Made by a program: the position numbers and the translations under genes. A stretch of DNA of 64,000 nt from Coffea arabica (lineage: Eukaryota > Streptophyta > Magnoliopsida > Gentianales > Rubiaceae): assembly GCF_036785885.1 (NCBI RefSeq), contig NC_092323.1, forward strand, positions 13,462,501-13,526,500, read 5' to 3'. Shown in pieces: positions 12,126 to 49,400 of the stretch. The notes below the pieces were generated by a model. It did not search any database and was not told the origin of the DNA. It saw only the letters and a program-made list of their open reading frames with translations. The stretch's first letter is position 1. The number at the start of each line of letters is the position of its first letter.

Positions 12126-12659
12126 TTGGAAGAATAAATTCTTCTGTTCACTTTGTCCGGCTCTTTGGAGTTACCTCCATTTTCGCTCCTGCATAATTTT
12201 CTTTTCTTTTTCTTTTTTGAAAAAAAAAAGTTAGTTTGGCATTTTCTTCACAAAATCCTTCTTAATTTTTCCTAAAATTATCAAATTTAAAGATTAAATT
12301 CTTACTAAAATGGAAAGGAGAAGGAGAATTTTGTTCAAATTTAAGGATTAGATACTCTACAAGCTTTAATTCCTCTTTCTTCAGCCAAAAGAGAAAAAGA
12401 TAGGCAAGAAATAGAAATCAAAAAATAGAGAAAAAATAGAAAAATGAAATGATAGAATTAGTTATGTATTAGTTAAATGGATTTTAATGGACAATTGGAT
12501 CTCTATTATCCATTTGGATCCAATCCACATACACCATTTATTTTATGGATTTAAAAGGATTGAATCATTGAATCCATGATCCATTTATATGAAATCAATT
12601 ATGATCCATATATCCATTTTTTATACCTCTACGAGTAATCATTTAGTTCTCTATATTTA

Positions 12660-19264: not shown

Positions 19265-19859
19265 ACACATAGAGGTTTCTTGTGATACATTTTTTTATAT
19301 ATAAAATAAGTCAAATTTGAAGACAATTAAAAAAATGCAAAAAAAAAAAGGAAAATTCTTGAGATAAGAAAATTGCCATTAGCACTAATAGTCTCCAATA
19401 ATTAGCAATTAGTAAACCACTTAGTACACTAGGGGACAAAGAAAGAGGTTTAAAATAAAATAAAAAAAAAGTCACTTCGAAACTCTAGCAAACGTCGTGA
19501 ATCCTATCTTTCCTATTGTCGAACATATGTTCTGCTAGATGTAATGATCAAAATGTTATTGCTGCTTACAAGATTAGTTTATAATCTATTTTCAAATATT
19601 TATGCTCTGCTGAATATGTTGCACTCCCCATCCTTTGTAGTTTGTGCAATTTCAATGTATCTACAAAAATCGATTAACCCCTGTCAGACTTACTTCCATT
19701 GTGCCTATCACACCATTTTGTTGCAATTCTCCCAAGTACTTTGCACAATTAGGATGCTTCAATCAAAGTTATTTCATACTTCTTTCTCAATCCCTTTACC
19801 ACCATCACACTTCCTCCATGGCCCTTGTCACACACACACACATATACATATATATATAT
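18178..19859. other. Upstream region of C2 gene 1
   Basis: Much of this stretch aligns with the region upstream of C2 gene 2 (38.08-39.02 kb), for example AAGCTCTTCAGATTCTTGAAAGGCTA and TAGTTACTGTGGTACACGACAC, so the promoter was duplicated with the gene. It also holds TA repeats at 19227-19252 and 19845-19862. No coding exon is supported. Confidence 0.65.
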
Positions 19860-21095: not shown

Positions 21096-22987
21096 ATATC
21101 AAACGGCAGCCTTGAAAGTTATTATCAACACATATGTACTAAATGCGTGGAGGTGTGCCAAGAGAGCTCCTTTTTTTTTGTGATGTGGCAAAATATTATT
21201 GGACGATTTATGGTCGTCTTTGTACGTGAGGATTGCCCGTGTTTGTGCAAACAAAAATTCCGAATGGAAATGTTATTACTCTATTTTTCAAATGAATGCT
21301 GCATGCCTTCACTTTCCTTGCACCCGATTGGACCCCTTTAGCAGCATTTCTGTTTCGGTTTTTCCCATATGTGTTGGGACTTGATTGTCATCATTGTAAT
21401 AATTGAGCTTAGTTGACTATAAGGACAGTTATATTACAATTTTGCCATTCCATTATAATTTTCTTTTATCTTATCAAAATTGTTTCCATTTATCTTTCTT
21501 CTTCAATTTACCTTTCTTACACGTATAAAAATATAGATTCACAGACCAAACCACGTGCTCATTCCTGAATCATTCTCATTTACAACAATGTTATCTCATT
21601 TTTATTATTCTGACAACATGCACCAACTACATATTCAACCACCTTCATTAATTATTCCTGTTCTTATTTCAACCATCTTCATTAATTATTCCTGTTCTTA
21701 TACATTCATTTCGTTAAAATTTTTTTTTTCTAAATTTCTTCATTAACCATATAGTACTAAGGGCGAATGCCCGGTATCCACATCGGACGTGGTCGTCCTC
21801 CGCGTGGCGAGAGGGGATTGGTTTTCTGGTTATGTGGCGCGAAATGATTGGTCGTAAATTTTGCTTGTTGCACCTGATTTTTCCTCCTCTTCGTTCATCG
21901 TCCCGTCTTTCCTTCGACCTGTTTATCACTTTATTGCTACTGTGTTTCTCTGCAGGTGTTCGGTGGAGGTCATTAGCTTCCTCTCTACCCACTCAATCAG
22001 CCTCCTCTCTACCCACTCCAACCTGCTTCTTTCTGGCCACATATTGGTGTTGTTTCCACTCCAAAATTTGACTTGGTTCCACCTTATTTTTTCTCTCCTT
22101 CATTCGTCTTTCCTTCCACTTGTTCTTTGCTACTGTGTTCCTCTCTGCCCATTCCAACCCACTTCTTTTCGGGCAGATACTAGTGCTGTTTCCACTCTAA
22201 AATTACTGTGTCTTCTTTCGTAAGGTCTGCAATGCAGCTCTGTGGTGAGAGCAGGTGAGCTGCTCTTGCAAACAGTGATCCATGTCAAATCACACCCATC
22301 TCTCTTCGATTTTTTGTTGCTAAGGAAAGTTGCAGCTGATTTTCGTCGTCCTCCTTTTCCATGAACACCGCATGAACTTTTTTTTTTTTTTTTTTGCTTT
22401 ATGAGGATTGGTGAGGCGTTGGGCTCAAGAATAAACATCAGAATGTCTCGCCTTGGCCGTGTTCAGCATCGCCAACAAGAAAGCCCTATTTTCCTCTCTT
22501 GTCCTTCATTTTGTGATCCGACCTGATCGGCAACAACAAAATGAACCTTTCTTTCTTCCAAAGCTTCTTCAACTTTTTGGTTCTTTTTTTCCCAATTATT
22601 TACGAGTTTTGTTGTCCAATTTTTTTTCCTTTTTATGATGTTGTACTGTTGCAGGTGCAGATTTTGAAAATTTCCTCCACCATCCCCATGGGGTTTTGTA
22701 ATTTTTGCTTTCCCCTTTGAAGCTGGGTTCTAAATGGTTAGTTTCTAGCAAAAGGGTTATTTCTGCTGTTTTTTTTTCTCATAGTTGCTCTGTTTCTTTA
22801 CTTCATTTTTTTGGGATTTCTTCTTGAATTGCTTGACTTGAATGTTGATCAATCAAACAAGGCATAAATAAAGGGATTCAGAGAAGTTGCAGCACAAGAA
22901 CAAAAGAAATTCCAGTTTCCAATTCCTGTTGCTACTATCGAGAATATTCATCAAATAATAGGCTTGGTGAAGTTGGCTACGGCCGTG

Positions 22988-24071
22988 TTTCAAATCAAAC
23001 CATTTTGCATGATGGACCTCTGGATTCTTGGTTGAGATGGTGGTGTCGTTTGAAGGTCAATAACCAATCCCATGAATAAGGTATAATTTACAGTAAAGGT
23101 CTGTGACTTTTGCTGCCTTATAAAGAGAGGCTGCTTTGTTTATTCTAAAATTACTTGGACGAAACTTTGTATGAAAAATGAAGCTACTATATATATAGAC
23201 CAAATTATCAAAGTTGTCTATCAAAGTGCATTCATCTTATTTCTACTCTCGAAGTTGCAGACATAGAAGTTTTATGATAAACTGGTTCATTAATTTGCAT
23301 GCTACTTGTCTTATTTAAAAGATCCTCCTTTAAAGAAATTTTGAAAGTCAGTATCTACCAAAACCTTTTTCATATGCCTATGAACTAAATCTTAGAGTGG
23401 AGAACTGTAAATCTCTCTCCAAGCATTCTGTTTTTTATCAAGAAAAGTTTTTTCTTTTGGTTGAGTTAATGTATGTACTTTATAGAAATCATAGAAGTTC
23501 AAGTTAAAATATGTACTTAAAATTTTGTCATTTCAAATCAAACCATTTTGCATGATGGACCTCTGGATTCTTGGTTGAGATGGTGGTGTCGTTTGAAGGT
23601 CAATAACCAATCCCATGAATAAGGTATAATTTACAGTAAAGGTCTGTGACTTTTGCTGCCTTATAAAGAGAGGCTGCTTTGTTTATTCTAAAATTACTTG
23701 GACGAAACTTTGTATGAAAAATGAAGCTACTATATATAGACCAAATTATCAAAGTTGTCTATCAAAGTGCATTCATCTTATTTCTACTCTCGAAGTTGCA
23801 GACATAGAAGTTTTATGATAAACTGGTTCATTAATTTGCATGCTACTTGCCTTATTTAAAAGATCCTCCTTTAAAGAAATTTTGAAAGTCAGTATCTACC
23901 AAAACCTTTTTCATATGCCTATGAACTAAATCTTAGAGTGGAGAACTGTAAATCTCTCTCCAAGCATTCTGTTTTTTATCAAGAAAAGTTTTTTCTTTTG
24001 GTTGAGTTAATGTATGTACTTTATAGAAATCATAGAAGTTCAAGTTAAAATATGTACTTAAAATTTTGTCA
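22988..24071 (+). repeat. Near-perfect tandem duplication, units 543 and 541 bp
   Basis: Unit 1 is 22988-23530 and unit 2 is 23531-24071. I see only one 2-bp difference (a TA unit) and one substitution (CTTGTCTTA versus CTTGCCTTA). The pentamer TTTCA stands at the start of both units and just after the second (24072-24076), so the duplication probably arose through microhomology. Its near identity makes it very recent. Confidence 0.95.
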
Positions 24072-24342
24072 TTTCACCTATTTATTTTGAATTCCTTGAC
24101 TATGGTGACTTTTGATTCATTTTCTGAATTTTATTTTTTCAATTCTTGGCTGATGGCAGTCGGAATTTTGAAGTCAATTTTATCCTTCACCGTGATTTTT
24201 ACTTATTCAGGTATGTTGCTTTGTTTCTCAGAGATCTGGTATTTATTTGAACTATAAAATTGTTTTACTTTTGATTCATTTTGGTAGAAATGGGCCACTG
24301 CTCATGAATAACAGATTGTACCAATTATTCATGTGTATGCAG

Positions 24343-25556
24343 GTTGCTGAAATCTTAAAAGATCGACCCTAATGATTTCGTGCTTGCCAAGCTGTGGATG
24401 TCCTTAATGCGATATCTACTGGAAACGGTGGAACCATTGAACTTCTTTATATGCAGGTCAAAGTTTTACGTATGCTGAATTCTGTGGTTGTCATCCACTG
24501 TTAAGCAAAGTTGTTTGACAAATGTAGTTCTGATTTCCTTGTTCAGCTCTATGCCCCTACTACTGTGGCACTAGCTCATGACTTTTGGCTATTACACTAT
24601 ATGCCTGTGATGGAAGATGGCAGTCTCGTTGTATGTACCTCATAGTAAACTAGTGGAATGCAAAATGATCTCATCTTAGTTGCTTTAGGTTGATTTATTA
24701 AATTCTTGAAAAACATTAGGTCTGTGAAAGATCGCTGCACAACACTCAGAATGGTCCCAGTATGCCACTTGTTCAGCATTTTGTAAGAGCTGAAATACTG
24801 CCAAGCGGATACTTGATCAGACCTTGTGAAGGAGATGGCTCCATAATCCATATAGTTGACCACATAGACTTAGAGGTATTCCGCTTAACATACAGGTTTC
24901 ATCATAGAGTATGCTACCCATGCTATAATAATCGTATTGCTTGCCAACAGCCATGGGGTGTGCCTGAAGTGACCCGCCCACTATATGAACTGTCAACATT
25001 GCTTGCTCAGAAGACAACAATGGCGGTATGATATTTAGATTCTATGCAGTTCTCTCCTTTGTGCCAGTCATGCCATTGTATTGGTTTCAGATATTAATCT
25101 CAGTTTTTGGAATGTATTTGTGAATATACTAAAGTATCTAAAAAGAGATGAATATACCATTTTGTTCTCTAATTTGACACTGTAATATCTTGCAGGCTTT
25201 ACACCAATTAAGACAGATCTCACATGAAGTTTCTTAGCCTACTGTCACAGGATGGGGAAGAAGACCTGCAGCATTATGAGCACTCAGCCAATGATTGAGC
25301 AAGTAGGTTTCTGAGTTATTGACATTACGTTCTGATGGCTTCTAATTTTTTATGTGAATCTAAAATTTACTTTATTTTTTCTCTAGGGATTTCAATGAGG
25401 CTGTAAATGGTTTTACAGATGAGGGATGGTCTATGCTTGACAGTGATGGCATTGATGATGTTATTGTTCTTGTGAACTCTTCTCTCAGCAAATTGATGGG
25501 ACTAAAGTTTCATCCGTCAGCAATGTAGTGCCATGTGCCAAGGCCTCCATGCTTTT
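24343..25556 (+). pseudogene. HD-ZIP III transcription factor fragment (START domain), decayed
   Basis: Exon-like blocks with normal intron borders are present at 24343-24456, 24547-24630, 24720-24875, 24951-25025, 25196 to about 25300, and about 25387-25556. They read VAEILKDRP, GGTIELLYMQ, LYAPTTVALAHDFWLLHYM, VCERSLHNTQNGPSMPLVQ, SGYLIRPCEGDGSIIHIVDH, GVPEVTRPLYELSTLLAQKT, VTGWGRRPAA and FNEAVNGFTDEGWSMLDSDG. These are diagnostic for the START domain of class III HD-ZIP proteins (REV/PHB/ATHB8/15 family), regulators of leaf polarity and vascular development. Stops interrupt it (for example TAA-TGA right after DRP, and TAG after SHEVS). The homeodomain, leucine zipper, C-terminal MEKHLA region and the exon bearing the miR165/166 target are absent. 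The introns are kept, so it was copied from genomic DNA and not from mRNA. Confidence 0.88.
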
Positions 25557-26257
25557 ATAGGTCAGGAGATTAAATGCACAGTAAGAAACATTATGAGGCT
25601 CCACTCGAATGTTTAGATTTTCTCTGAAAAGCAAAAGGAATTGATAAATGGATGAAAGTTAAGTTGTGGTACATATTGCCTCAAACTACAACTGTATATA
25701 CCACAGTAAATTTAAAAAATATTTTTTTGTTTTGTAAAATAAGATAATAAGATCAAGAGTTGAAAGTTAACATAATTCCAAGATGTTTGATGGCTAGACC
25801 AAGTAACCATTACCTTTGTGTTCAATACTGTAGGTCACTATCCTTGAAAACTGAAACGAATGTTAAAACATAATTTTCTTTCTCACTGAATCTTCGGGTC
25901 CCATACATGCATAGTAGTTCTATGGGTAATTACAACAAATCTCTTAAGAAAAAATCTCTTAGAGAGTAGTTTACATGCATAGTAGTTCGTTTTTCGTTCC
26001 GTTTGTGTTTTGATACTGTATTTATCTGGAGGTGTTCGTCTTTATTTCTTCTGTGTTTTTTATTTTTTGATCTGTAAAGTTGTTGAGTGCTTATGCTTCT
26101 GGGCATTGGTGTTTGCCCTTCCCATTGGTTTTGCTACCTGTATGCATATCTTTGGCCCATTGGTTTGCTCGTTTGGTGGTTTTTTTTTGTGATAGCATGC
26201 TGCATTTCCTACTCTTTTAGTATGATTTATAAATCATGCTGCTACTAAAGATTCCAT

Positions 26258-26462
26258 GTTTTGGCCTTGAAGGCTTGTTGTGTTGAATATATCATTCTGG
26301 AGAGTGATAACTTATCATCTCTATTTCCTAATGCACATTTAAGCTTGGGAGGACTTGAATTAATTTCAAAACACCTATTTGCTTTGCTCACTACCATCAC
26401 TGTTCTTCCTACTGTTTGGATGCAAGATCTCACTCTAGTTAGTTACATCCCAGATGAGTGAT
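26258..26462 (+). pseudogene. Exon fragment resembling an AVT1-type vacuolar amino-acid transporter
   Basis: A frame of about 66 codons reads KACCVEYIILESDNLSSLFP, then NAHLSLGGLEL, LFALLTTITVLPTVWMQDLT and VSYIP. The pattern VEYIILE-DNLSSLFP with TTI-VLPTVW--DL---SYI is what I recall from plant AVT1-like (AAAP family) transporters, spanning two membrane helices. Only one exon's worth is present, with no transporter start or end around it. It follows the HD-ZIP III fragment in the same orientation within the Helitron body, which fits a second capture. Confidence 0.65.
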
Positions 26463-28288
26463 TTATTAATTAAGGAACTTTTCAAAGGAAAGAAGTACAA
26501 ATTTAGGGGAGCGAGAAAACCTTCTATCCAAAATCTCAGGTGTCTTTCAACTTTTCTCTACTCTTTTTTGGTTGATCCTTGTCCTTTTTTTGGGCTTGTT
26601 TTCATTACTGTCCATGTTGATGGTTTGTTTGTAGCCTTTTTTAAACATTTTTCCCAAAGGGTTTTTGATGATTGACTGCAGTAATTTTATGACTTCTGTA
26701 GTTGTGTGGTGTTGAATTTGTTTGGTTACGCACCAAGTAATTGCCTGTGGTGCACTGGTTTTAGCTAGGTATTTACTTGTGAATGCACTGATTTGATGGG
26801 AAAATAGTTACTTTTAGTGTGTCATGGGGTTAGTTTTTTTTCCTTTTATTTTTTCTTTGTACATATACTTGGCGAATTACTGAAGCATCACACTATCTAT
26901 CTTTTATTTCTTTTCATTATTTTTTCTTTTTGTGATGCCTTCTGTGGATTTTGTTCCTCACGTACCATTTTGTGTGCTTCAGATAGCATCATGTTCACTA
27001 AGAACTTTTTTTCTTTAATTCTTATATTGAATAGGTGAAAGCAATGATCATGGAGGTAGAAGTAGATGAAGAAGATGGAAGATTATGTGATGGTGATTTG
27101 GATGGAGGCTTCAATATTATTTTTACTAAAACCCTTGAGCAGCAAATGGTACCAGTGCTTAAATTAGGATTGATTAACATATACTATTACCATATACTAA
27201 TGAATGGTGAACTTTAATATGCACATTTATGATACACAAAGATGACTAAAAGTTTTCATTTACTATGGTTATACGAGTTTACTACGGCTATCCACAGATT
27301 TCTGATACAACTCAAGATTATTGCCATATTTTCTTCCTCTAAAATCCTTGGAAATTTTTCTGATAGTATCTTGTTTCCATGCCTTTTACACATTGTGGTC
27401 AAATCCCTAAGATAACATGCAGTGATATAAGTTTACTATAGTTCTATACAACTCCCCCCTCCCCCTGGTTTCCAAAAAATCTGAGTTTCTTGCACTCTAT
27501 TACCTCAAAACTTTTTAATCACAAATCTGGTCTTATTGGTTGCTTTAGTTTAATGTTGGTTTGTGAATTTTTTTCCATTGGCCTAAATCTTTTCCCTCTG
27601 CTTGATGCAGGAATTGTGCCCAACCGCTGAATGTTATTTTTCTGTTGGAAGCTTTGTGTTTTTTTTTTTACAGTTATTTTGGATTTTGTTCTGTTTTTTC
27701 CCTTTGTGTACATAGAAGTTTTGCTCCAAAGAAAACATGTGGTGACATGTTCACTACTATTGTCCATGACTTTCCTTTTTTTCCCCAAAAATCTGGTTTT
27801 CTTTCGCTCTATTACCTCAAAACTTTTTATCTTGGTTACCCTTCTTTGGTGTAGTATTTTTTTCCCTGGACTTGAATAACAGTGATGCTGATCTAAGGTA
27901 TAAGCATAGATATAGTACTTTTACAACTTTTATGATGCTGAGATTATGACTTTGTTGTTGATCATAGTCTTAAAGATGGGCATATTCTACTCTTCCTTAC
28001 TCAATCTCGCACTTATTTGCTGTATCAATTTTTGGGGCTGCTGGAATAGAAATTATGTACCCCTGATATTACACGTTCCACATTTAGGTGTTACCTTTGT
28101 AGACTCCCACTCATTAATGAAGTTATGCTTTTCACAAATCGATGATATACTGTTTCTTTCTTCTTTGTAAATTTTTTATGTATTTCAATAAGTGAAGATA
28201 TATGACACAATCACAATATGCTATTTATTCGACCTCTATAATACTTCTACTTAACAAAGACTAAATGGGCATACGTACTATCTATTCC

Positions 28289-28318
28289 ACCGCGCATCGC
28301 GCGGTGCCCTCCTCCTAG
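28289..28318 (+). mobile_element. Helitron 3' hairpin and CTAG end
   Basis: A 7-bp perfect stem with a 3-nt loop, then a 9-nt spacer, then CTAG with T following. All features of a Helitron 3' terminus are met. Confidence 0.85.
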
Positions 28319-28319
28319 T

Positions 28320-30209
28320 TCTCTATATATACCTATCTTTTCTATCCGAGACTTCCTAACTCTACTCCTACCATACATTCATAACTCCTTCAGATTGAAA
28401 ATCTTTTATCATTTCTAAACTTTCATCTTTCACTTCAATTTTAAACCTTACTACCAACTACAACAAATCCATACCTGACTTTTCTTCAAAATGGCAAATA
28501 CTATTTCAAAAAGATGTTGCTTTCTCATCCGATGCAAAAATAGAGGCCAGGTACATTCCTTTTTGTTCAACAGCATACGTTTCCAAATTTTTCTCTAATT
28601 TACATTTCATCTAAAATATTGTTATCTTAATATCATATGCAGGTTTTACCTCCTCTATTCAAATCATTACTTTCTTAACATGGCCGTCACACAATTACCT
28701 TCATGCATGGAACAAAACAATGGAATATTACAGTAAATGCTGACCCGTTTGGAGCAGGATGGGATAAATATTGTGAACAAAATATTACTAATGAACATCA
28801 CATACTATTGCTTCGACATATTGGGAATTTATTTTTTGATGTTATTAATTTTTGTGAATTGCAACAAGAAGTTAATCTCAGCTGGATAGTCCCTCTAACC
28901 AACCTTCATCTTCAGCAAAATTGTATACATTCATAATACATCTTTATCCTTTCTATTTCATAGTAATGTTCCAATCTTACATTATTTATTCCAACAAAAA
29001 TATTTCTTATGTGCAGTTCATGCTGATCCGCCAATTCATGAAGAAATAGTGACATCTTCACTTCAACCTTATTTTTCGCAAGATTTATCCACTTCAGTAT
29101 GCTTTTATCAAAACTTTCACTCAGCCGACCCGTATACATTGGTAAAGAATTCTTATTATATTTTCCTTAAATTATTCCCTACCTAACTCATTTCCTTCAA
29201 CTTAGCTCACTAACTTTTACTTTTTGTATCAGAAAATCCCACGATTTGTTGACTACTTTCTCAACGAACAAAAAACTCCACTTATAGCTCTCAAAACTAA
29301 AGATAACATAACAGAAATTAGAATCAAAGGCAAGCGGCTCAAAAAAAATTGGAAAGCTTTCATTCTTCAACATCAACTCCAGCACAATGACGCCCTTATT
29401 TTCATTCCAGAATCAAAGACCGTCTTTACTGTTTTAATATTTAACAGCAATGGGGATGAAAAAATTTTCCCTTGGTACCCTGTATTTCATATCCATTATT
29501 ATAATTTGCCAATTTATTATTATAATTAGTTATTAACTTTTTGTATCTGTAACATTATTCATGAACTATATTATCCTTATTTATTAATACTCTGTGATTG
29601 ATCAATAAACATGATTGCATAGCTAAAAATACTACAAAAAGATAAAAATCAATTACAAGTTAAACTTTACATCCAATAACAATTTCCTTTTAATAAACAT
29701 TTACCTTCTTATCCATCTTAATAATAGTTCACCTACTTCATGTATAACTGTCATTTATTTTACCAAAAAATTTTACAGTGTAATAGGATACCATGCATTT
29801 CAAAAGCAAAAAATTTTCCACAATATATTTTACCATTATCCACCATTTCATATCCAATTTATCAAATCAACACCTTCTACTTTATAAATAAAACTTTAGA
29901 TATAATTCCATATACAGTTTCATATAATTCCATATAATTCCATTCTAACATTTTCAGCTATCATATACATCACTCTCCTACATTTACTCCTTTCTTGCTT
30001 TTACTTTTCGTTATATGATTGTAGCCTATTTCACTTCCACACTCAACTCTCATTCTTATAATTACATATTTATCCTAATCTAAACTCAACAACCTATACA
30101 GTTTACATGTTTCTTTTTACTCTAACATCACACCAACCCTCAATGACCAATACAAGACAGGGCATAATTGCATTGATCCACTGCCCGTAGCGCGGTCATA
30201 CCCACCTAG
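28320..30209 (+). mobile_element. Second Helitron, about 1.9 kb, carrying a B3 gene fragment
   Basis: It starts TCTCTATATATACC, a typical Helitron 5' end, one base after the CTAG of the preceding Helitron. It ends with an imperfect hairpin around CTGCCCGTAGCGCGGTC (30181-30197) and CTAG at 30206-30209 followed by T. The base before the 5' TC is T where A is usual, so the 5' assignment is less sure than the 3' end. The interior holds a decayed B3-domain gene and no RepHel. Confidence 0.65.
28491..29529 (+). pseudogene. B3-domain (REM-like) protein gene fragment inside a Helitron
   Basis: The first block is MANTISKRCCFLIRCKNRGQ before a GT donor. The next begins VLPPLFKSLLS, then a stop. It continues as HGTKQWNITVNADPFGAGWD, KYCEQNITNEHHILLLRHIG and NLFFDVINFCE, a B3 DNA-binding fold. 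A later block starting near 29232 (IPRFVDYFLNEQKTPLIALK, then IKGKRLKKNWKAFILQHQL and DALIFIPESKTVFTVLIF) is a second B3 domain. B3 domains bind DNA in plant transcription factors. The in-frame stop and poor continuity show it is not intact. Both domains lie between the ends of one Helitron. Confidence 0.75.
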
Positions 30210-32029: not shown

Positions 32030-35000
32030 GATTACTTAGAAACTAGAACTTACAAGTAATTGATTTAACCACTCAAAAGTGTTCATCTATTGTAAATCAC
32101 TCTGTTTATAGTTTATTAAACATTACTTTAATACTGATTTTTATACTAGGCACTTGTATTAATAATTGATTACACCTAACCTCCAATTTTTTTTAATGTA
32201 CAAATTTCAATAATTTAACCATTACAATATATTTACCTTATATAATGTGGATTTTGCCATTATTATTATTACTAGTAAATAAACAAAAACAAAACAAACT
32301 ACAACAAAATAAAGCAACTCTCTCTTTATGACCTTGGCGTAATATATATATATATGTCATGTCAAAAATGGTTACAATTAATGAGAATAACGATTATGAG
32401 AAATTACGGAATTTGCTCTTTCAGGGCTATGACTGTAGTGGAAAGGTTGGACCCCCAATCCAGTAAAGGATTAATTTGCAAGTGATACCCTAATTTCATA
32501 GTAGCACTGGCACAACGGCTATAAGATTGGATATATCATTTTCTGATTAGACACGTAGCTGTTAGGATTGCAATTTTTTAAGGAGCCTTTTTTTTTAAAA
32601 AATTATTTTTATGCAGTAATTTTGTGGGAAAAAAATAATTAAAAAATATGTAAAAACAAATATTCACACAAAAAAAAGAACATGAAATTTTTAACTAAAA
32701 AAATAACAATTCAAACAATCCCTCTAAAGCACTCGTGCAAAAATGTTAAGTGCTAATTCTTTTTTTTATGAAAAGTGAAGCTAATTCGAGAGAGTATAAC
32801 AAATGTTAGTGTGTATAATGCATGTAATATCTTAGGTGTAATTGAAGTGTTTTAAGGAGTGCCCAAGTGCACTCAATTAGAAAAATCCTTTCTAGTGTCT
32901 ATCTATATTGCCCAAATTTGTTGAAATTAAAGGTACATGAAATTAATTACCTAACAACAGTGTCGACCACGTCATTACAATGCATACACACTGTTTTTGA
33001 AAAACGACATTCACATAGTTATCCATAATTTTTGCATAGCTCATAGAACATGTTTTCTATGTTAATACTCTGAATGTAAGCAAGTATTCGAAAATATTTA
33101 ACCTAATAAGAATGAAAGAAGGTATAGGTTATAATTATAAATTTAAAAAATTTGTGCAGTAATTAAATTAAATAGAGTAAGTTTACCATACGCATGATTG
33201 TATATTCGGATATCCATGTTCTCTTTAAATTTGCTATCAACAATGCTTGTGATGTTGTAAAATTACTTGACCTCAACCATGTAACTAACTTTCAAGCACA
33301 TGTATCATTTTCAAACCTACAATTTTTTGAAATACATGTTGATAAGAGTATGAAACAACATTAAAAGTTTGATGTAGTGTTACTGATGGAACTCACCAAC
33401 TGCGCAGGTATCGAGCAAAATCAAAATAAGTGAAGCAAAGGAAAGAAACAAGATTCTTTGCTAGAACTGCATAAGTGAAGCCGGAAAATCTTCAGTACTT
33501 CAAAGTGATTAATATCCTTATACTATTTAAGAACGAGTTTAGAACTAGATTTCAACCGCAGGGGTGAGATTATTTTGGGAATGTGAGAGTGTTTGAAGAG
33601 TAATTGGAACATTGAGTACAAGTCATTATAGCTTTAATTTCACTATAATTACTTATATAACCTTTTAGACATTTAAGGTTACGGGCAGGTTTGGTATGTT
33701 ACAATGTTTGGTGCCAAGTTGAGTATCAAGTACAACTGAATAAAGTTTGTGTTTTGATAGAATTACATAAAAGTCCTTTTAATCATTTATTATACTAACA
33801 TCCAAGCCTTCCAATTTCCTGAAACCTTTCTCATCCGTTAAGAAATTAATTGGATGTTTACATAATTGGATTTTAATTACAATTAATTAACTTAATTATT
33901 ATCTAAACAATCATTATCATTATCATTATCTTTTTTGGTTTCACCTCTTTGGTTTTATTATGGCTATTAAATATTTGGTGGAATGTATAGCTTTTCCTTT
34001 AAATTGAGGTGAGTTCTTTGGGTTTGTCTTCTTCGATTGTAGTTTTTTTTTTTCTGATGATTGGTTTATTTAAGAACTCCATATAATTTGCCTTTTGATA
34101 CTTCTAATTCCAAAAACTGACTAATTGTATTGTTTTCCTTAGTAGATTTTAGAGATTCTGTCTCTGGTCAAAGTACAATTTGAGATAATGTTGTCACTTT
34201 CTAAAATAATCAGAAAAGCAATTTTATCATCTTCTCCTCCTCGGCCAAGGTATTATCTCTTTATTTAAGTCAAATAACCTTATTTCTCATGAACTTTCTC
34301 CTATTGTTCTTGACTCCAGGGATCTGTTGACTACATTCCAGCAGTTATAGTTCAAGTAGTTATTTTTTCATGTAATATGATTTGGAATTCAGCTTGTGTT
34401 TATTTTAATTGGAAATTTTATGATTGTAAAATTTATTAACTTAGAATTTTGTACTTCATTGAAACTAAAAAAGAAAATTAATCATGCTACATAGTACTAA
34501 GATGTCATTTGCACTCTATTTGCTTTCCATGTTATGATCTCATTTTTGTATTATATTGTTTATATAGTTTCAAATACAAAAAATTTGCTTTTTTATGTTA
34601 TCTAAAAGAATTTGTAGTGAATCTTGATGAGTTTAAATGCTTTAGCTACAGCACCATTTTGATTGCATTGTATTGATTCATTTACTCATAATTGTATGTT
34701 GTACAATGATAAATAATGTTTCTTGATTTGATTGAAGCAACTATTATCCATAGTTCAAACGAGTCAATAAAGTAGAGATGTTATATTGGATACTTATACA
34801 AGTAAACATTGGAAAATATCATTAAGCAGTTTCTACCTATAGTTTGCAATTCGAATTCATATGAGGAATTTCTTCTGATTTTAGTTACCATTTTCTACAA
34901 TTTCAAATTTAGAAAATATTATTTGCACCAATTTTTTATAATCAAGATAGTTTCAATTCAGATCTTTAACAATTATGCTGATTTGAACTTATTTATGAGA

Positions 35001-35679
35001 TTATAAAGAAATGCCCTAGCAAAAAACACCAAATTTGAATAGTTTCTACAAAATTTTGAAAAAGACCACTTAAGTTTCTTATTTATCTATCATTTTTGGG
35101 CATTATTATCTTTATAAGAAACATGTGATTAAATCGTATTATGCCCACCAAATTATATAAATAGTTAGTCAAAAATAAAATTATTTTAGATTAGATTGGA
35201 TACAAAGTGATTGATGGATAAACTTGACTTGATAATTCAGGTTGAGCTTAAGTTGAGGGAGAAATCAGAAGCATTGTTTGAGGGATCTTTCACGAACATA
35301 TATATATTCGAGAGATGAAGGGTCCAATTGATACTTTAAAATGTTTTATCATCTTGGATAAGTTTTAGAAGAGACCTTTGGATACTTTTCAATTGCACTT
35401 CAAACATTTTTACATTTTCAAACTATCCTTATCTTTGCAGTTGAAATTCAAACATAACCTTTGATCACAATGGATTCTTATATAGTATAACGATAAAGAT
35501 GTCTTATTGCACATTATTTTTATTGACTCACTATGTAACTTATGATTTTCCTATTAAAATCACATGATAAAATCATCATACTTCAATTCTTATACTACAA
35601 AATATTAAACAATAATTATTAATTAACTTGAATCACAAGCACCAAATTCCCGAGCGTCGCGCGGGCTGTCCCTCCCTAG
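32030..35679. other. AT-rich, gene-free stretch ending in a third Helitron 3' terminus
   Basis: No exon or family match is seen across 3.6 kb. The end at 35649-35679 has a near-perfect hairpin CCCGAGCG-T-CGCGCGGG, a short spacer and CTAG (35676-35679) followed by T, on the plus strand. It is the third Helitron 3' end in this insert. Its 5' end could not be located. The sequence at 32692-32731 reappears as a short patch at 35846-35885. Confidence 0.6.
35649..35679 (+). mobile_element. Helitron 3' hairpin and CTAG end
   Basis: CCCGAGCGTCGCGCGGG can fold into a stem with one mismatch, and CTAG|T follows ten bases later. This is the signature of a Helitron 3' end. Confidence 0.75.
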
Positions 35680-35790
35680 TAATCTATCAACAGGATTAGT
35701 TTGGATGAGTTCACGTCACCGAAAATTCACAATGACTAGTTTTGGCTTTGTATGGGAGACTAGGCAAAATAAACATTGCCATAGAATAAA

Positions 35791-35921
35791 TTTTTGGGTC
35801 GATTTCCAATTTTGAAAGAATCTTGTTTCTTTCCTTTGCTTCACTTAACTAAAAAAATAGCAATTCAAACAATCCCTCTAAAGCAAAATAATAGTAGCAC
35901 CACATAGAGGTTTCTTGTGCT
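35791..35921 (+). other. Patchwork of short copies from elsewhere in the window
   Basis: Successive patches match distant loci in direct orientation. 35791-35815 matches about 8026-8051 (one G missing). 35815-35847 is identical to 8095-8127. 35846-35885 matches 32692-32731 with one mismatch. 35883-35897 matches 20083-20097, 35895-35906 matches 20058-20069, and 35901-35919 matches 19266-19284. Then U3 starts, matching 20044 onward. Neighbouring patches overlap by 2-6 shared bases. This looks like filler DNA from template switching. Confidence 0.8.
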
Positions 35922-37037
35922 ACTGGAATTTGCTGTAGCACCACATAAAATCACAGAAAGGCAAAATAATAGTAGTACTTTTTGTGATGTGATATTATTT
36001 TAAAAAATTACTTAAAATAATATTATAGTATTTTTTTTATGATATGATGTATGTAAAATTAAAAGATAGTTGAAAAATTGTGCTTATGATACAAGTAAGA
36101 TAATATTTGTAATTTTTTTTCTCAAAATATACTGTCCAAACGGACCAACAAACTAGTGCCTCCGAACCTAGTATTAAGATTTGAGACAGTCGGGCCAAAA
36201 AGGAACTTATTGGAATATAGATCAGTGCATATCTACGACAAAGAATCCCAACAAACTACTTCACTAAGATTTGGCTTTACAGCTAAACACCTAGAGGAAA
36301 CTGTAAAGTTTCCTTTTTTAATCTTTATATATGTACCCCCATTTGTACACTAGAATATATATAGTTCTATAGTTTGTCTTTTAAAGTGATGAACAAGTTG
36401 GCAGGAAATAATTTTCAGAGTGCTCATCAGTGATAGCGAGAGAACTTATAAAATAGGACAAATTGAACATGCAAGTCTTGAAAACAATGCCCAGTGGAGA
36501 GATCCTCATCCAGAAAAAGAATCAGTTTTATACGTTAAGCATTTCAACTGTGCCCAATATAATGCTTATCTGAACTATATATAAGCCTGAGATTAAAGGA
36601 ATCCCACGTACAATTTAAGTATATTTTAGCTCAAAAAATTCAAGTATATGTTAATATGTAGGTTTTCCCTTTTGTTAATTTTTGTAAATGCTGTGTTCAT
36701 TCAGCTTAGAAACTCTTTCCTTCATATCAAATAAGAGTGCTAATACTTCCCATTAAATCAGGAAAAAACTTTTAATTAACTACTATATTGTACTGCAATG
36801 AATCCTTTATTTATTTTTTTTTTTTTTGCAGCCAAGTTTGATTCACTTATCCTCTTGCTGGTTGTTGAGCCTACATCTCCAGAGTACTACTGATCTAGTT
36901 GTCGAGAATTTGAAACAAAATAGTTATTGCGAGTCTTTTTTTTTTTTGCTGTTTTTCATGTAATTTAATTACTAAAAGTGCCTCCAGCTAATATGTAATT
37001 TTTTTTTCATTTTCTACCAAACAAAATGGAACTATAT
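35922..37037 (+). repeat. U3: block nearly identical to U2
   Basis: This is the direct-repeat partner of 20044-21095, at about 97-98% identity by eye, with a short extra T-rich stretch near 36.94-36.99 kb. Homology ends at ATGGAACTATAT. It lies directly downstream of the 3' end of C2 gene 2 in the array order. The open frame at 36156-36353 mirrors that at 20278 with a few substitutions. Confidence 0.87.
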
Positions 37038-37395
37038 TACGAGTTCTCCAACTATAAACACTTCTCAGGTCTCTGACCCTTCTTTAGTTTGGCTTGTATT
37101 ATGGGGACAATTATGAACTTCCACGTTAGTAGATATACCAATCGGAAATAATAATTTAGAAGGGGAAAAAATGGAAAAGGAAAAAAAAAGTAGGGACTAG
37201 AACAATTGAAGAAAAGTTGGATTCACAATTTCTTCAAAACGACTTACAAAAGCTGCCTACTGAAAACATACAATTGTCAGCAAAACTCCTGTGCTAAGTA
37301 AGTGCACATATTAGTATTATGAATGACTACGTAGAACTAATCCATTAAGCTAATCTAAAATTAATTAAGCACCTTAGTGCTTTACAGCCGTTAAT

Positions 37396-37983
37396 CTACA
37401 AGGCCTCTAGAGCAAATCCAAGTGCAAAGTAGTCATAATCAACATAATCAAGAGATTGACATCTACTGTCGTTGCAACCACATGAATGATCCCACCTCCT
37501 TTCGTTAGTCATCTCTGGAACTCCAACTTTCACCTTGACCTGCACTGAGGGGGGCTTGACATCTTGATGCAAGCATGGATTCTTTGAATTCATCCGAACC
37601 CATGTCTCAATTTCCATGTTTGGTGATTCAAAAACATTTTTCCAGGGAATTTCAGCTCTTCCCAAGATTTTTGATCCACCGGTAAGTCTTCCAAGAATTG
37701 GTTTAGTGCTTCTCCATCTCAACTCAAAGACAACGTTCCCTTGCCTCAAGGAGTTGATGGCATCTTCAGTTCCTTGGCACTGCAGTGAAAAAAATTCATC
37801 CCAAAACAAATCAGATTTGGATGAGATTTCTTTGGTATTGAGTTGGACTCTTGTGTTGTTTCCTGCTGATAGACAGCATCTCACAAACAAGTGTCCTGAA
37901 GACTTGAACTCAATATTTTTAGCTCTTATGATGCTTAACTCGCATTTAAGGCTAGAGGAACATTGAAAAGAAGCATCCATCAT
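37396..37983 (-). CDS. C2-domain protein, copy 2, intronless, 195 aa
   Basis: This frame starts MMDASFQCSSSLKCELSIIR and ends LGFALEAL. The C2 fold spans about residues 10-160, with KSSGHLFVRCCLSAGNNT, VQLNTKEISSKSDLFWDEFF, VVFELRWRSTKPILGRLTGG and ILGRAEIPWKNVFESPNMEI, followed by a Cys-containing tail HSCGCNDSRC. Compared with copy 1 it lacks the arginine-rich DRLRRRRW segment and has extra residues near the end (DYVDYDYF). The family is predicted to bind membranes, but a specific role is not known to me. A TATAAATAG box stands about 95 bp upstream. It is intact and probably expressed. Its flanks are related to those of copy 1, which shows a segmental tandem duplication. Confidence 0.9.
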   Translation of the reverse strand: MMDASFQCSSSLKCELSIIRAKNIEFKSSGHLFVRCCLSAGNNTRVQLNTKEISSKSDLFWDEFFSLQCQGTEDAINSLRQGNVVFELRWRSTKPILGRLTGGSKILGRAEIPWKNVFESPNMEIETWVRMNSKNPCLHQDVKPPSVQVKVKVGVPEMTNERRWDHSCGCNDSRCQSLDYVDYDYFALGFALEAL

Positions 37984-38074
37984 CAGTGTGTGTAGTATGT
38001 GTGAGGGACAAAGACAACAAGAGACAAAAATTGAGGATTAAAGCTTCGATGAGGAGAAGCAATGTTTTGGTGGG

Positions 38075-38083
38075 CTATTTATA
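38075..38083 (-). promoter_or_regulatory. TATA box of C2 gene 2
   Basis: TATAAATAG on the minus strand, about 95 bp before the start codon. It is conserved in sequence and position with C2 gene 1. Confidence 0.7.
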
Positions 38084-39130
38084 GTTGCATCATGCATGGA
38101 CTTTCTTGATCTGGACAGTAGGGTGAACAAGGGAAAGTGATATACTATAACCTTTCGATGGAATAATAGAGAAATGTTTCCACAGGCCAATAAGATTTAG
38201 TTGCCATAAGCATTATCAAATTTGTTGTATTATTATATGCATGAAGCGAATCTACATGTGATTCTGTGAAAGATTAATTAAACATAAGCTCTTCAGATTC
38301 TTGAAAGGCTATGTATATTGATTCTTGAAAGGCTATGAACGACTAGTGGATGAAGATTGAGTTGAAATTCTTGGACGGTAAAGTTTAGTGGATTGATCAC
38401 TTGACTTGCAACTGGAACATTCGATCCAAAGAATTTGACAAATAGACAAAAACACATTTTCATGGGCTGCTGCTACTTTCTGTCCTATTAGTTACTGTGG
38501 TACACGACACATGTCCCCAGATAATTGGAACTTGTTCAATTGTTTGATTGTCCTTCCTTGCTATCTTGCTATTATCCTTAGTACCTCAGGAATGATCAGA
38601 TTGATTGAGGCAAGAATTGCTCAATTCTTTTCTTTCTACCTCATGGTGTGATGGTGACCTCTGTGGGGGAATGAAAATTTGGACTTCTGCTGGTGCCACA
38701 ATGATTTGATGTCATTGAATTTCAAAATTAAGCACAATTCAAAGCACCAATTTTTCAAGATAACGAAATTTCCAGCACCATTCGGCAATCGCGCCAGTAA
38801 CTAGCAACTAGCAAACCACTTGTAATCTAGTGGAACAAAAGAAAGTACAAAAGAGAAACAATCACCTCGAAAGCTTTTGCAGGTATCAGGAATCCTATCT
38901 TTTTCTTTTCTTTTTTTTTTCCTTTTGAACATATTATATGGAATAGTTAAAATGTCATTGCAGCTTAGAAAATTAATTCGTAATTGATTCCAAGGATTTA
39001 TTATATGCTGAATGTGTCGCATTTCCCAGCTGATTATGTATGCTTCTCAACAACCTGGCCCACAATTCGCTGGGGCAATTCCAATATTTCAATCAAAGGT
39101 AACTATTACTTACACTTCTTTCATGAGATA
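38084..39130. other. Upstream region of C2 gene 2
   Basis: Related to the region upstream of C2 gene 1, in the same order, for example GAAAGGCTATG, TTACTGTGGTACACGACACATGTCCCC, and GAATCCTATCTTTTTCTTTTC near 38.89 kb. No coding exon is supported. Confidence 0.65.
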
Positions 39131-40018
39131 ATTTCAGAAACCTCTCTTGAAGTTTTTTATAATATCACTCAACTCTTTTAATATTTTTTAAAATTTCACT
39201 TACTTCCCCTGTCAATTTGAGAAGACTAAATATTCCTATCAAAAGTCACAAATTGATAATATTACCCTTGCTCTTAATAGCTTTTTAACCAAAAAACAAA
39301 ACAAAATTTTTAAATCAAAAAATGTAGATTTAAAAAAAATAAATTGCTATCTAATAATGGTCCATATTTTTATATATCAAAGTCATGGTGTGACAATAAA
39401 GAATGTGAGTAAATTAAATCTAGTCAAAGTCAACCACATAGAAGGATTTTGGTGAGCAATTGACACATTAAAAAATTTCGTGAACAATTATACGAAAGTC
39501 AAGAAATTTTTTTAGAAAATATGATTTAATACATGATTTAGTTTAAGTTGCACTAAAAACTAAAATAAAAACTAAAATAGTCTCTTCATATGTGTAGTTT
39601 GTAATATAAATCCTACTTATAGGAAAAAACTTTATAAATAATTCCAAATTTAAAAAATAATCAAAAAATGATCTAATGAGCATCAAATATATATTTAGGA
39701 ATATCCTTTTTTTAAAATGTTATACATTATATTAGATAATAATTATTATATATCTATAAGATTACTTGTTATTGCATTTGTAACCGCTCATATTTTCATC
39801 TTATTACTTTTTATAACCTCATTTTATTTTTTATTCTTATTATAAACTTCATAAGTAGGATGACATAAGGGTAAACCAAAGTTTTTATTTTTCTTGCATT
39901 TCCTCTTTAGGGGGTAAAATGTTACTAGAAATGTCAATTCAAAGGAAGCATGTGAGATTTTAAAAATCTAAGACGCTGAGTGATGTTCAACAAAACGTTA
40001 GCGGAGGTTTCTAAAATT
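39131..40018. mobile_element. MITE-like element with long diverged inverted ends (probably Mutator-like)
   Basis: The left end runs ATTTCAGAAACCTCTCTTGA and then TCACTCAACTC..CACTTACTTCCCCTGTCAATTTG. The right end, reversed, runs ATTTTAGAAACCTCCGCTAA, then CATCACTCAGC..CACATGCTTCCTTTGAATTGACA. TTTCAGAAACCTCCCCTGA-type ends are common in plant Mutator-like non-autonomous elements. No transposase is present and I could not settle the target duplication. It sits just left of U4. Confidence 0.6.
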
Positions 40019-40044
40019 GTCCCTTTATTTATTGCCCTAGTCAC

Positions 40045-40534
40045 TATATTTTCTAGTAATTATGCATCCGTATTTCGTGAAAACTAAGTGAATTCTCATT
40101 CTTCCAAGTCCATGCAAGCATTATTTCCTCCTTTGAAGATGAAAAGCCCATAATTGCCAAGGAAAGAAGAGAATCCGGAAGGAAAGCTGAATATGTATAA
40201 TGTGTAACTAATTTCTTCTCTAGAACTACTGTACTATAAATAAAATTTGCAGTAGCTTACCAAGGAAAACAAGGAACTAGGGTTTGCAATAGCAAGGCAC
40301 AAGATCGCATAAAGGCAAAAACATTGTGCTTAACAACGTAGTGTTAACTGTTAAGATTGGCATCCCCCTGCCCCACCCCCCCCCCCCCCCCCCCCCCCCA
40401 CAAAAAAAAAAAAAAAGAGAGGTAATAGGATTGACACGGTCAGGGACAAAAAGCAGCGTATTAGAATATAGATCAGTGCATATCTACTAGATAAGGATCC
40501 CAACAAGCTCGTTCACTGAGATTTGGCTTTACAG
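40045..40534 (+). repeat. U4, first part (continues at 43180-43242 and 45259-45560)
   Basis: The landmarks of U1-U3 appear in order here: GCATCCGTATTTCGTG, GTAACTAATTTCTTCTCTAGAAC, GATCGCATAAAGGCAAAA, GAATATAGATCAGTGCATATCTAC and GAGATTTGGCTTTACAGC. The block is then cut by a hAT element, resumes with CTTTACAGCACAAGAACCCACAGG, is cut again by a Helitron, and resumes with ATCAACAAGTTGGAAGG and CAGTGATAGCGAGAGGACTT to about 45560. A run of about 25 C at 40376-40399 is unique to this copy. Confidence 0.8.
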
Positions 40535-45261: not shown

Positions 45262-45560
45262 ATATAGTAATGAAAGAATATTGTTCGATTTCAAGTGATC
45301 AACAAGTTGGAAGGAAACAAACACTTTTTTCAAAGTGCTCAACTGCTTATCAGTGATAGCGAGAGGACTTACATAAAGTATAACAAATTAACTATGTAAG
45401 ATTGGCAAATGAAGCCAATGGAGCGAGCCTCACCTAGAAAAAAGAATCAATCTTATCCATTAAATACGAGCCAGATAACAAAAACTAGCAGCATCACTTA
45501 CCAATACTCATCTCAGATAACAATGACCTTAGACTAAAGGAAGCCCAGGCACAATCTAAC

Positions 45561-46432
45561 TAAATCTCAGATTCCTTCCCGTACAAACCTTTTATCTTGC
45601 TTACAATTTAAAGTACCTAATTGCTAAACCATTTCCATCCCTGCTATCTCACAGGCAGGTCCTTCCAAGGAAAAGATACTAATAAAGTAAGAGATGCATG
45701 CAAGAGATTGAGTCGATCAACAACCCAAAGAAATTCAAGACAAACAATCTGTCTAGAGATCTAAAATATGCAACAGCTGTAGAACTGTGCGTGTGCATGT
45801 CTGTAATATCCACGTAGATGAGTGTGCCTGGTGGCTACTTATTTAACTAAGAAAAGTAGCCTAGTTCCTTCAATCAGGCTCAATCTGGAACACTTTTCAA
45901 GCCTTGCAACCAAAATACAAGAAGATAACTGAGGTTCACGACTCGAGAGTCGAGACCAATGGTAACAATCGAAAACTAAAGTATTTCATAGCTAAAATGA
46001 AAAATTAAAAGAAATTGGCAAATAGATGACACCTATCTTCCCCATTACTTATATTGATAGGGGCTCATCAAAATGATTAGTCGTCAAATTTTTACAACCA
46101 AATGATAGACCAATCATAGCAAGTAGTAAAGCCTATGCATAATTCTTCTATGTTACAATTAATAATGAAATGCTTGTATAATTCTAAACCTAGTTTTCTA
46201 AACTCGATATCAACTAATAATAAGTGTGCCCTTTAAAAAACCTATTTTGCCTCGAACGAATCTGATAGGAGTACCTGTTATCTTCATGTGCACCTTTCGC
46301 GTCATCACCCTGTTCTAGAAAATTTACCAACCTAGTGGAAGCATTATGAACTTGTACCAACCTCACTGGCCACGTCCATTTACAGCATTTAATCGGAACC
46401 GGCAAAGGGCAATGACAGAAAGCAACGTTCTC
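45561..46432. other. Interval between U4 and the ABC transporter 3' end
   Basis: The region holds the presumed 3' UTR of the minus-strand transporter gene next to 46433. I see no other gene. A frame at 46214-46405 has no recognisable features. Confidence 0.5.
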
Positions 46433-49400
46433 TCATTGCTCAATGGAACGAAGCTCCCACTTGCCCTCACCATCAATCAAACGTAATTCCCGCGAATGGA
46501 ATTGTATCAATGCAGGTCGCTGCCAGCACAGAGCAGAGTACATGAAAGAGTAATCAAAAGGAAAGGATAAAAATGAAGCTTAAAAGGAGAAATAAAAAGA
46601 TGTCATCCAAAGCAAGATCAACATATTTCCAATGAAAGTTATTAAAGCGGAATTCTAATTATCATAGTTAAAGGCTTATGCTGCAACCCTAGTTTAACTT
46701 CTTCAACAAGCTAATACCATTTCTTAGTCTTAGCCTGTTCCATTTGGGTAACTTTAGATCCTTGGGGATTTTCTGTTTATGCACTCTTCATTGAGCGAGG
46801 AAAAGAAAAGAATAACCACTACTCACCTGTGATGATGTAACAACTGTGATTCCCATTTCATTTGCAAGCCTATAAAGATGCTCTTCAACGTCAACACTTG
46901 TAGCACTGTAATTTGCACAGAAAATTACTATGAGATGATCACAAGTTTCTTTGTCACAAGAAAAGAATATAACAAATTCTTTCAGCTTACTTGGTGCACT
47001 CGTCAAGTATTCCAAATCGTGGCTTGTGAAAAAATAAGCGTGCCTTGTAACAGAAAAAAGCAATGTCAAAAACAAAGCAATAACCCAAAAACAAGCACAG
47101 ATAGGCGAATCAAAAGAGGGCTTAGTGAACGTTATTAATTATGGATTAGTCCCTGTTTCAGCTCACCATGCCCAATCTCTGCTGTTCACCGAGGGATAAG
47201 ATGTCTTCCCAATTCTGGTTAGCATCCCAGCCACCTTCCCTTTCCAGAAGATAGACTAGTTTAATGTTTTCGAGTATAGATTTTAAATGTTCATCCAAAA
47301 TTTTAGCAGTTCCCACAAGCTTTTGACCTGGAATTCAAAATAACTATGTTATCAAGAAGCAAGAATGCAGCACGTAAGAATGAAGCTGATGACTTTAGGA
47401 GAATGATGGATAGAAGTGACTTGAGACTTAGTATACAACATCTGGGAAGGATTTACAGGAAGGAGGTATGCATGCTATCAGCTCTTAATTTCGAGTATCC
47501 ACAAGCATATTAAATGAAGCCCATCCGTCTCCTTCTGACAAAAACCTCAAGCCTAATCAATTAAAATTTAACTAGTTATGCCAACCCCATATCTAACCAC
47601 AGATTGGTCTTCCTGATCTTAGTTTAAGAATTTACAAAATATACTCAAAAATAAGATTGTAGTAGCCAACATAATCAGTAAAATAACAATGCATCAGGAC
47701 TAAGCAACACTAATTATCCTCCTACTTATCCTTTCAAATAAAATTTTCTCAACCCACCTCACAAGTATGGATTTTTTACTATTTGATAAAACAGTTAGAA
47801 TTCAATGATATGACAGCCTCTACAAAAGCTGGCCCCAATTATTTTCTGCTAATCTAGCTTTAACTAGCACTTTTATACACATTGAAATTACTATCATGAA
47901 ATATATGATACCATAACAATACCTTTGACACATTCCTAATTAGTTCCCCACAGCCAAAGTTAATTTCTGAGTATCACATTTGGATAGGACTGTCAGACTA
48001 CAAATGTATAGCTGGTTTCTGAAAACTTTTACCACCAAAGAAGCAGAAGAAATCCAACCTAAAATTGCAGGTTGGGTGGCAGGCATGGCATAGTGACCTC
48101 TGTTAACTATCACTACCAATCATACAGAATACAAGCCAAAAAGATAAGCTACTAATGTGTAGTTCAATAACTCATTCAATCACCTTTATCTATTGAGTAT
48201 AAAACCCTTCTTTCTGCCTCCTCTTGTGATAGAGGATATATGATTTGATCTCTTAGGGTTCCCAAGCATGTATATGGGCGCTGAGGAACATAGAAGATAC
48301 TGCAACCAGATCTAGAGTTGACCTGTTGAGTTGGTTTAACCAGCTTTCCACTAACAACCGGCCAAAGACCTCGAAGAACTCTGAAGACGGAACTTTTCCC
48401 ACTTCCATTTGGACCTTCAAAAATTTTAAGAGACAGCAAGTGAATAAAAGCTTCTTGGTATATACATCCAGATGCAATCACAATAGAGCAATCCACCAAC
48501 CAGTAACAAGAAGGCTTTTGCCCGCCACAATGTCACAGTTCAACTGCCTAGCCATCACTTTTTGTGCTGGAGTAATTATATCTACCCCGGAGAAAGAAAT
48601 GATATCATCTGACAGAGGTTCTGTCTCTAGAGATGGCAATGAAGAGCTCGAAAAAGATTCCCCTGCATGAAGACCGACTTTGTCATAAAACATCGATAAT
48701 CCTTTACATAACCCAGAGACAGCAGAAATAGAATAATACAAAAATCGACCAATCCTAAGCACTTGGATTTGACAACTGGCTCATAAACCTGCCACTAAAT
48801 GCTAACAGCCATCTCATGGAAGTCCCTCAGTGGATAATAGCCTGATGTTTCAGACTTAAACAGCAAGGGACATCTGTTTTCAAGACATGCATGTAACAAA
48901 GTAATGCCAAATAATTCATCTACTCATATGTCATTTACATACTCAGAGCTAAAAGATTTTTTCCATTTTTTGAGGTAACTAACTTGCTTAAATATTATTC
49001 AGGGTAGAAAAAGGCTAGGTGGCATTTAATATTATCAACTGGCAAAATTAAACAAACGAACAACTCTAGCAAGATAGAACAAATGAAAATCACTACACAT
49101 TTGAGAACAATCATGAAAAATTTTCAAATAGTTTGCACCACATGTTCTTATTTCAACTGCTGCACTATGAGCAAGATGATGCCAAGATCATGAAAGCTGA
49201 CAAAAAGAATAAACACACACCGTCTTGAGCAGTATCTAAAAGCTTTTCCAGCTCAAATATTCGATTGATGCCACCAGAAAGCTCAAGGAACTTTCTATGA
49301 AGCTCAAGAATGTCACCAAAAGCTAAAAAGCTCTGAGACACAACTGACGCTAAGAACCGCAATGCATGTGCCAACTCTCCTGTAAAATACATATGATATT

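Follow-up and report, generated by a model that had tools for sequence, protein, structure and literature searches.

A mosaic of short, locally templated patches at the left edge of a tandem repeat unit in Coffea arabica, a probable scar of template-switching repair

The window analyzed here, a stretch of 64,000 nucleotides of Coffea arabica DNA (NCBI RefSeq assembly GCF_036785885.1, contig NC_092323.1, referred to below as C14, positions 13462501-13526500), carries a tandem array of C2-like genes and of repeat units designated U. One of these units, U3, lies next to the second C2-like gene, and its left end abuts a short mosaic of patches that match other parts of the same window. A high-copy Helitron lies further to the left. 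The coordinates of these features and of the sequences that could have served as templates are listed in Table 1.

Table 1. Mosaic patches, their candidate sources, and neighboring features (positions are those of the window)
Feature	Position	Strand	Description
P1	35796-35815	+	copy of 8032-8051, 20/20
P2	35815-35848	+	copy of 8095-8128, 34/34
P3	35845-35885	+	copy of 32691-32731, 40/41
P4	35883-35897	+	15/15 to 20083-20097 (U2); also present at 35961-35975 (U3)
P5	35894-35906	+	13/13 to 20057-20069 (U2); also present at 35935-35947 (U3)
P6	35901-35919	+	copy of 19266-19284, 19/19
Source region of P1 and P2	8032-8128	+	
Source of P3	32691-32731	+	
Source of P6	19266-19284	+	0.76 kb past the end of the U2 tract
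37-bp inverted copy of 8091-8127	33427-33463	-	alternative source of P2
High-copy Helitron	33515-35679	+	2165 bp, between the mosaic and the P3 source; outside the mosaic
Left flank of the mosaic	35680-35795	+	no second genome copy found
U2	20044-21097	+	near-identical partner of U3
U3	35922-37037	+	resident unit of the tandem array, on the left side of the second C2-like gene
C2-like gene ORF right of U3	37396-37983	-	Pfam C2_GRDP, above cut-off

In a base-by-base check, six patches of 13 to 41 bp accounted for 124 of the 126 bases of the segment 35796-35921. A looser match of P1 extends leftward to ~35790 (25 columns, 96% identity, the T and G runs differing in length), and an extended match of P6 (23 columns, one mismatch) reaches position 35923; the two bases outside all patches, 35920-35921, are covered only if this one mismatch is permitted. 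Successive patches overlap by A, TTAA, GCA, GTAG, and CACATA, i.e., by 1, 4, 3, 4, and 6 bases. P4 and P5 are both short, and P5 contributes just three bases beyond the coverage of its neighbors. For its first 33 bases, P2 has a further match (33/33) at 33459-33427 on the opposite strand, a copy that had been overlooked in the first reading. The initial annotation described this segment as a patchwork stitched from local sources, with 2 to 6 bases shared at the patch borders: every patch that it named is present, base by base, and shared bases were found at the borders, their number ranging from 1 to 6.

The density of such matches was compared with that in 1146 control segments of the window (132 bp each, taken in 40-bp steps after the exclusion of 29 repeat intervals) and in 500 dinucleotide shuffles. 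A greedy match parse divided the 132-bp mosaic stretch into 10 phrases, compared to a mean of 15.4 and a minimum of 12 in the controls and a minimum of 13 in the shuffles. Matches of at least 15 bp covered 120 of its 132 bases, against maxima of 58 bases in the controls and 34 in the shuffles, and this coverage was equalled by none of the 1146 controls and none of the 500 shuffles. The 15 top-scoring controls shown coincided with microsatellites, with the sources of the mosaic itself, or with the inverted 37-mer. The number of bases shared at the switch points also exceeds chance: compared to random joins, an overlap of 17 bases at five switches (1, 4, 3, 3, and 6, which is one base below that observed) has P = 0.0003, and an overlap of 8 bases at the first three switches has P = 0.011. 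The latter figure is the safer one because the short patches were partly selected by the way in which they were found.

The whole mosaic occurs a single time in the C. arabica genome (1.198 Gb in 131 contigs; search at E values up to 10). The other matches retrieved in that search were the P3 source, the P2 source and its allele on the homologous contig C13, the inverted copy of P2, and the P1 source and its C13 allele; the search yielded 7 matches, with all 5 of the 5 candidates scored, and it skipped very common words and missed short matches, P6 among them. Exact genome searches with P1 (20 bp) and P6 (19 bp) each found three places, namely, the mosaic, the source, and the C13 allele of that source, and the reversed control patterns of both patches had zero exact places genome-wide. 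P2 matched itself, its source at 8.1 kb, the C13 allele of that source, the inverted nearby copy, and nothing else in the genome, and for P3 no genome match was reported beyond the mosaic and the local source. On C14, there is thus one source each for P1, P3, and P6 and two for P2, and the P4 and P5 sequences are found in both U2 and U3. The templates are few enough for their origin to be assignable, and neither the same string at many loci nor a high copy number of P1, P2, P3, or P6, either of which had been named beforehand as counterevidence, was seen genome-wide. Comparisons of the P2 core with prokaryotic genome contigs and viral contigs and of a U-core string with viral contigs gave no match and are uninformative for a plant; a scan of the window with Rfam (at gathering thresholds) and a tRNA scan found nothing.

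The sequence to the left of the mosaic has a layered structure. The Helitron copy in the window has a GC hairpin, a CTAG end, and an A/T insertion point, and the five larger copies that were fetched align to it from 33507-33515 to 35680-35687. With the Helitron removed, the inverted 37-bp copy would lie 160 bp from base 35789, and the end of the P3 source 892 bp from the same base. The 37-bp string is shared, in inverted orientation, by 33427-33463 and 8091-8127, and of these two the 8-kb copy alone was found in the C13 stretch; the inverted 37-mer may itself be a further templated insertion. It adjoins a fragment (32914-33427) of a longer repeat: all seven fetched copies are alike past both of its ends (in the 20-30 bases printed), and, among the 40 of 794 candidates that were scored, the copies are at most 95.3% identical to the one in the window, which is probably an older component of the site. 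The strips 33464-33512 and 35681-35795 gave only self-matches genome-wide at E values up to 10, in searches insensitive to short matches: the query for 33464-33512 held 24 bases of the 37-mer, the known copies of which were not listed. Elsewhere in the window, a second Helitron-like 3' end (a GC hairpin, then CTAG before T) was seen at 28318, and a 24-bp inverted repeat (40533-40556/43158-43181) surrounds ~2.6 kb that interrupt the U4/U5 homology and look like a TIR element. The segment 22988-24076 consists of two ~545-bp head-to-tail copies that are 99.5% identical.

The near-identity of U2 and U3 claimed in the initial annotation holds: over 1053 aligned bases the two units differ by 16 mismatches, with gaps opened three times (once for ~62 bp), and a five-sequence alignment gives 17 differences. 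The ~62-bp gap is best read as a deletion in U2, since all three aligned C13 copies retain the sequence. Divergence in three segments is 1.43, 1.69, and 1.56%, i.e., ~1.5% over the whole common tract, up to the mosaic, and a mismatch-free run of 436-437 bp (20425-20860 versus 36303-36738) is longer than expected (P = 0.003). Of the 17 differing columns, U2 is the odd one out in 10, U3 in 4, and 3 are ambiguous, a count that was made by eye, in which 10 of the 17 columns are without one or both of two C13 copies, and which does not fix the donor.

Comparison with C13 changed the reading of U3. The C13 stretch homologous to the window is 98.2% identical to it over 45508-64000 and 95.9% over 6537-13670, so that C13 and C14 appear to be haplotypes or close homologues. 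Window positions 35992-38387 align unbroken to C13 offset 24849-27259 (95.0% identity), and positions 36526-39371 align unbroken to C13 offset 48710-51555 (93.6%). Both alignments cross 37037/37038 into the C2-like gene, and the two C13 units, being 96.5% alike, may count as one witness. With the U3-C2 junction common to two places on C13, U3 must already have been resident, with the mosaic at its modified left edge, and the junction is older than the split of the contigs. A model in which U2 had been the donor and U3 the acceptor of a pasted U tract, drawn up from the window data alone, was dropped, as the right border of U3 lies inside unbroken C13 homology. The same border contradicts the part of the initial annotation in which the 1.1-kb U copy was the final tract laid down, a reading of U3 that went wrong because older tandem-array homology was misleading. 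A repair-mediated duplication with a pasted kilobase tract needs two new borders, and the right border here is old.

The likeness of U2 and U3 is better read as recent homogenization, by conversion or exchange, within the array. One C13 copy differs from both U2 and U3 by 1.56% in the right half and by 4.8 and 5.75% in the left half, and this pattern of divergence points to repeated conversion or exchange in the tandem array at more than one time. The homogenization of U2 and U3 possibly, although not necessarily, took place in the same repair as the mosaic. The patches carry 1 change in 142 columns (overlaps counted twice), compared to 16 in 1053 for U2/U3 (Fisher P = 0.71), which is compatible with one time, the patch bases being too few to reveal a moderate difference. 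If substitution rates of 2.5e-9 to 1.3e-8 per site per year are assumed, the distance between U2 and U3 (0.0154) corresponds to 0.6-3.1 million years, a range that dates the homogenization and the mosaic only loosely.

The left sides of the U units are far more variable. The left flank of U2 is also found on C13 (19553-20647 corresponds to C13 offset 39350-40451, 90.6% identity), and an upstream block that precedes U1, U2, U4, and the U2 counterpart on C13 is lacking at U3. No two of the three C2-linked U copies are alike at the left end: in the window this end is the mosaic, and on C13 one copy is fused there with a C2 block and the other ends at the counterpart of 36526. The left side of the C2-linked U unit has been rearranged more than once. 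The mosaic is absent from C13. An empty site was sought in the paralogous blocks of the window and on C13, and none was usable, C13 itself being rearranged in this region: it carries other sequence between the counterparts of 30859 and 36526, so that a break or deletion at U3 can only be inferred. More generally, between window 6537-45508 and C13 offset 16470-51595 the C2 and U units differ in number and order, with four C2-like blocks in C13 and two in the window, and large insertions are found on both contigs (e.g., ~9.1 kb at window 21123-30209). The C13 counterpart of U2 is interrupted by a ~5.25-kb element (L012:452-5704) with TIR-like ends and a short target duplication, and a further U copy on C13 breaks off only a few bases from the U position of that element.

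Several of the templates can be narrowed down. At the positions of GC in P4 and CATA in P5, the U2 counterpart on C13 reads TC and CACA, respectively; because of these differences, P4 and P5 are of the C14 type. Their copies inside U3, which lie 13-53 bp from its junction, are indistinguishable as sources from those in U2, and the P4/P5 templates may therefore have been within 53 bp of the junction. For P2 there are two candidate sources of equally long standing, the 8.1-kb site and the inverted copy, and the adjoining P1 favors the former. The source of P6 could be either the site at 19.27 kb or a lost upstream block of U3. The initial annotation had the template switching extend over tens of kilobases, and this survives in part: long jumps are required for P1/P2 (27 kb) and perhaps for P6 (16.6 kb), whereas the P3 source would be only ~0.9 kb distant if the Helitron were removed, a second, inverted copy of P2 is close by, and P4/P5 were maybe copied from within 53 bp.

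Taken as a whole, the segment 35796-35921 very probably represents complex filler DNA, produced in the repair of a break with repeated microhomology-primed template switching. The initial proposal of template-switching repair from local sources is backed by the templated patchwork with shared bases at the switch points. A break on C14 would have been repaired by joining a left end, at or to the left of ~35790, to the left end of the resident U3, which would have lost its upstream flank. Before this joining, a strand would have been repeatedly extended on a template, released, and re-primed on 1-6 shared bases. The putative order of templates is 8.03 kb, 8.1 kb (or the inverted copy), 32.7 kb, the start of the U repeat twice, and finally 19.27 kb or, if one existed, the former upstream block of U3. 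These steps would belong to a single event, carried out by polymerase theta or an SDSA-type polymerase. The present sequence evidence does not discriminate between FoSTeS/MMBIR, SDSA, and polymerase-theta joining. Templates in the immediate flanks, as expected for polymerase theta, are possible for P4/P5 and not for P1, and a 27-kb template would be unusual for this enzyme, the templates mapped in the part of the literature available being mostly near the break (PMC5068794).

The alternative that deserves most attention, tentative as it is, would, as in the initial annotation, have the 1.1-kb U tract copied from U2 by FoSTeS/MMBIR or SDSA along with the patches, in one event, or, in a milder form, would have a broken U3 end invade U2, convert along it, and then switch templates several times. 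It agrees with the constancy of the ~1.5% difference between U2 and U3 right up to the mosaic, with the similar divergence of the patches and of the U units, and with the position of the P6 source, 0.76 kb past the end of the U2 tract. However, the right border of U3 common to two C13 copies argues against the insertion of a new tract there, and the existence of a C13 copy equally close in the right half (1.56%) argues for conversion or exchange at more than one time. A more far-reaching scenario appears doubtful: one break in the tandem C2-gene array would have led to a single template-switching repair that drew on sites of the same contig as much as 27 kb apart; the conversion of U3 to U2 and the entire left edge, with the inverted 37-mer and the adjacent ~160 bp that have no second genome copy, would be its products. 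If it were true, template-switching repair, and not only unequal crossing-over, would drive haplotype divergence in tandem arrays. The opposite view, that several separate small repairs at a fragile array edge left one or two patches each, seems improbable. The inverted 37-bp copy of 8091-8127, found 160 bp from the mosaic in the sequence without the Helitron, and the three left ends among the three C2-linked U copies can be cited for it, and this 37-mer and the truncated repeat fragment nearby do suggest that the site was altered more than once; the patches themselves, however, abut with overlaps and leave just two bases uncovered, as a single reiterative repair would.

The remaining explanations fare worse. 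Capture inside a transposon, either a Helitron or a Pack-TIR element, is brought to mind by the Helitron end at 35679, ~115 bp from the mosaic, and is extremely unlikely: the mosaic (from ~35790) lies outside the Helitron, all five of the larger fetched copies of which end at about the same base, none of the 25 longest of the 45 inverted-repeat pairs in 35200-37800 flanks the mosaic together with U3, and no mobile copy of the mosaic was found elsewhere in the genome. Equally hard to credit is an origin from a degenerate ordinary repeat family, from older array duplications, or by chance; the locus is indeed rich in repeats and tandem duplicates, but the patches are almost perfect copies of mutually unrelated sites and were found at no other loci, and their coverage is unmatched by the controls and shuffles. 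An assembly or polishing artifact is highly improbable too, as six overlapping patches of 13-41 bp, with P3 differing from its source by one base, are in our judgment not a usual assembler error.

Repair scars of the kind favored here, templated filler DNA at a break, are already known in plants. As far as the excerpted accounts go, the filler at the maize p2/p1 junction measures 50 bp and stems from two sites, and the fillers described along with it range from 1 to 131 bp for wx and from 31 to 84 bp for R-r (PMC2686159); further maize fillers (PMC3014980), fillers of 1-123 bp left by rice transposon excisions (PMC4423477), and tobacco and Arabidopsis fillers from one or several nearby stretches (PMC3289645) are covered in similar extracts. 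Templated insertions are also ascribed to polymerase theta (PMC10923293, PMC5068794), vertebrate repair-mediated duplications involve nearby DNA, microhomology, and fillers of 1-68 nt (PMC2671141), and FoSTeS or template switching is invoked for the formation of Pack-TIR elements (PMC8277862), again according to the sections at hand.

FoSTeS/MMBIR consists of serial template switching on microhomology, and the mosaic resembles it in this respect; it would differ in that, on sequence grounds, no gain in copy number is assignable to the mosaic event. The study that puts the share of distant inserts at ~3% reportedly rests on worm data. In the portion of it considered here, polymerase-theta templates are mostly close to the break, and only that small fraction of inserts is distant (PMC5068794). 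The mosaic is similar to such insertions (TMEJ) in its pattern of repeated priming, extension, and release and in the possible P4/P5 templates 13-53 bp inside the flank; in contrast, the TMEJ inserts described in these excerpts are mostly <25 bp with close templates, whereas the mosaic has patches of 34 and 41 bp and distant sources. With the vertebrate SDSA-type duplications, as they are partly documented, it shares duplicated nearby DNA, microhomology, and fillers, but the long tract here, U3, was resident and not inserted. The mosaic is also like plant filler DNA (maize p2/p1, R-r, and wx; tobacco and Arabidopsis I-SceI junctions), in which short nearby templates likewise form a mosaic at the junction. 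Unlike those fillers, at least in the passages available, the mosaic combines six patches, the sources of which lie as far as 27 kb away and were checked genome-wide, and it comes with no pre-break reference allele. It is a natural six-patch filler with its main sources checked in a 1.2-Gb genome, on a contig that can be compared with a homologous one, and it demonstrates how true templated insertions can be told from older tandem-array homology. Given the number of its patches, the checked sources, and the 27-kb reach, this unusually readable mosaic is a good, clean specimen for measuring the template reach of plant repair.
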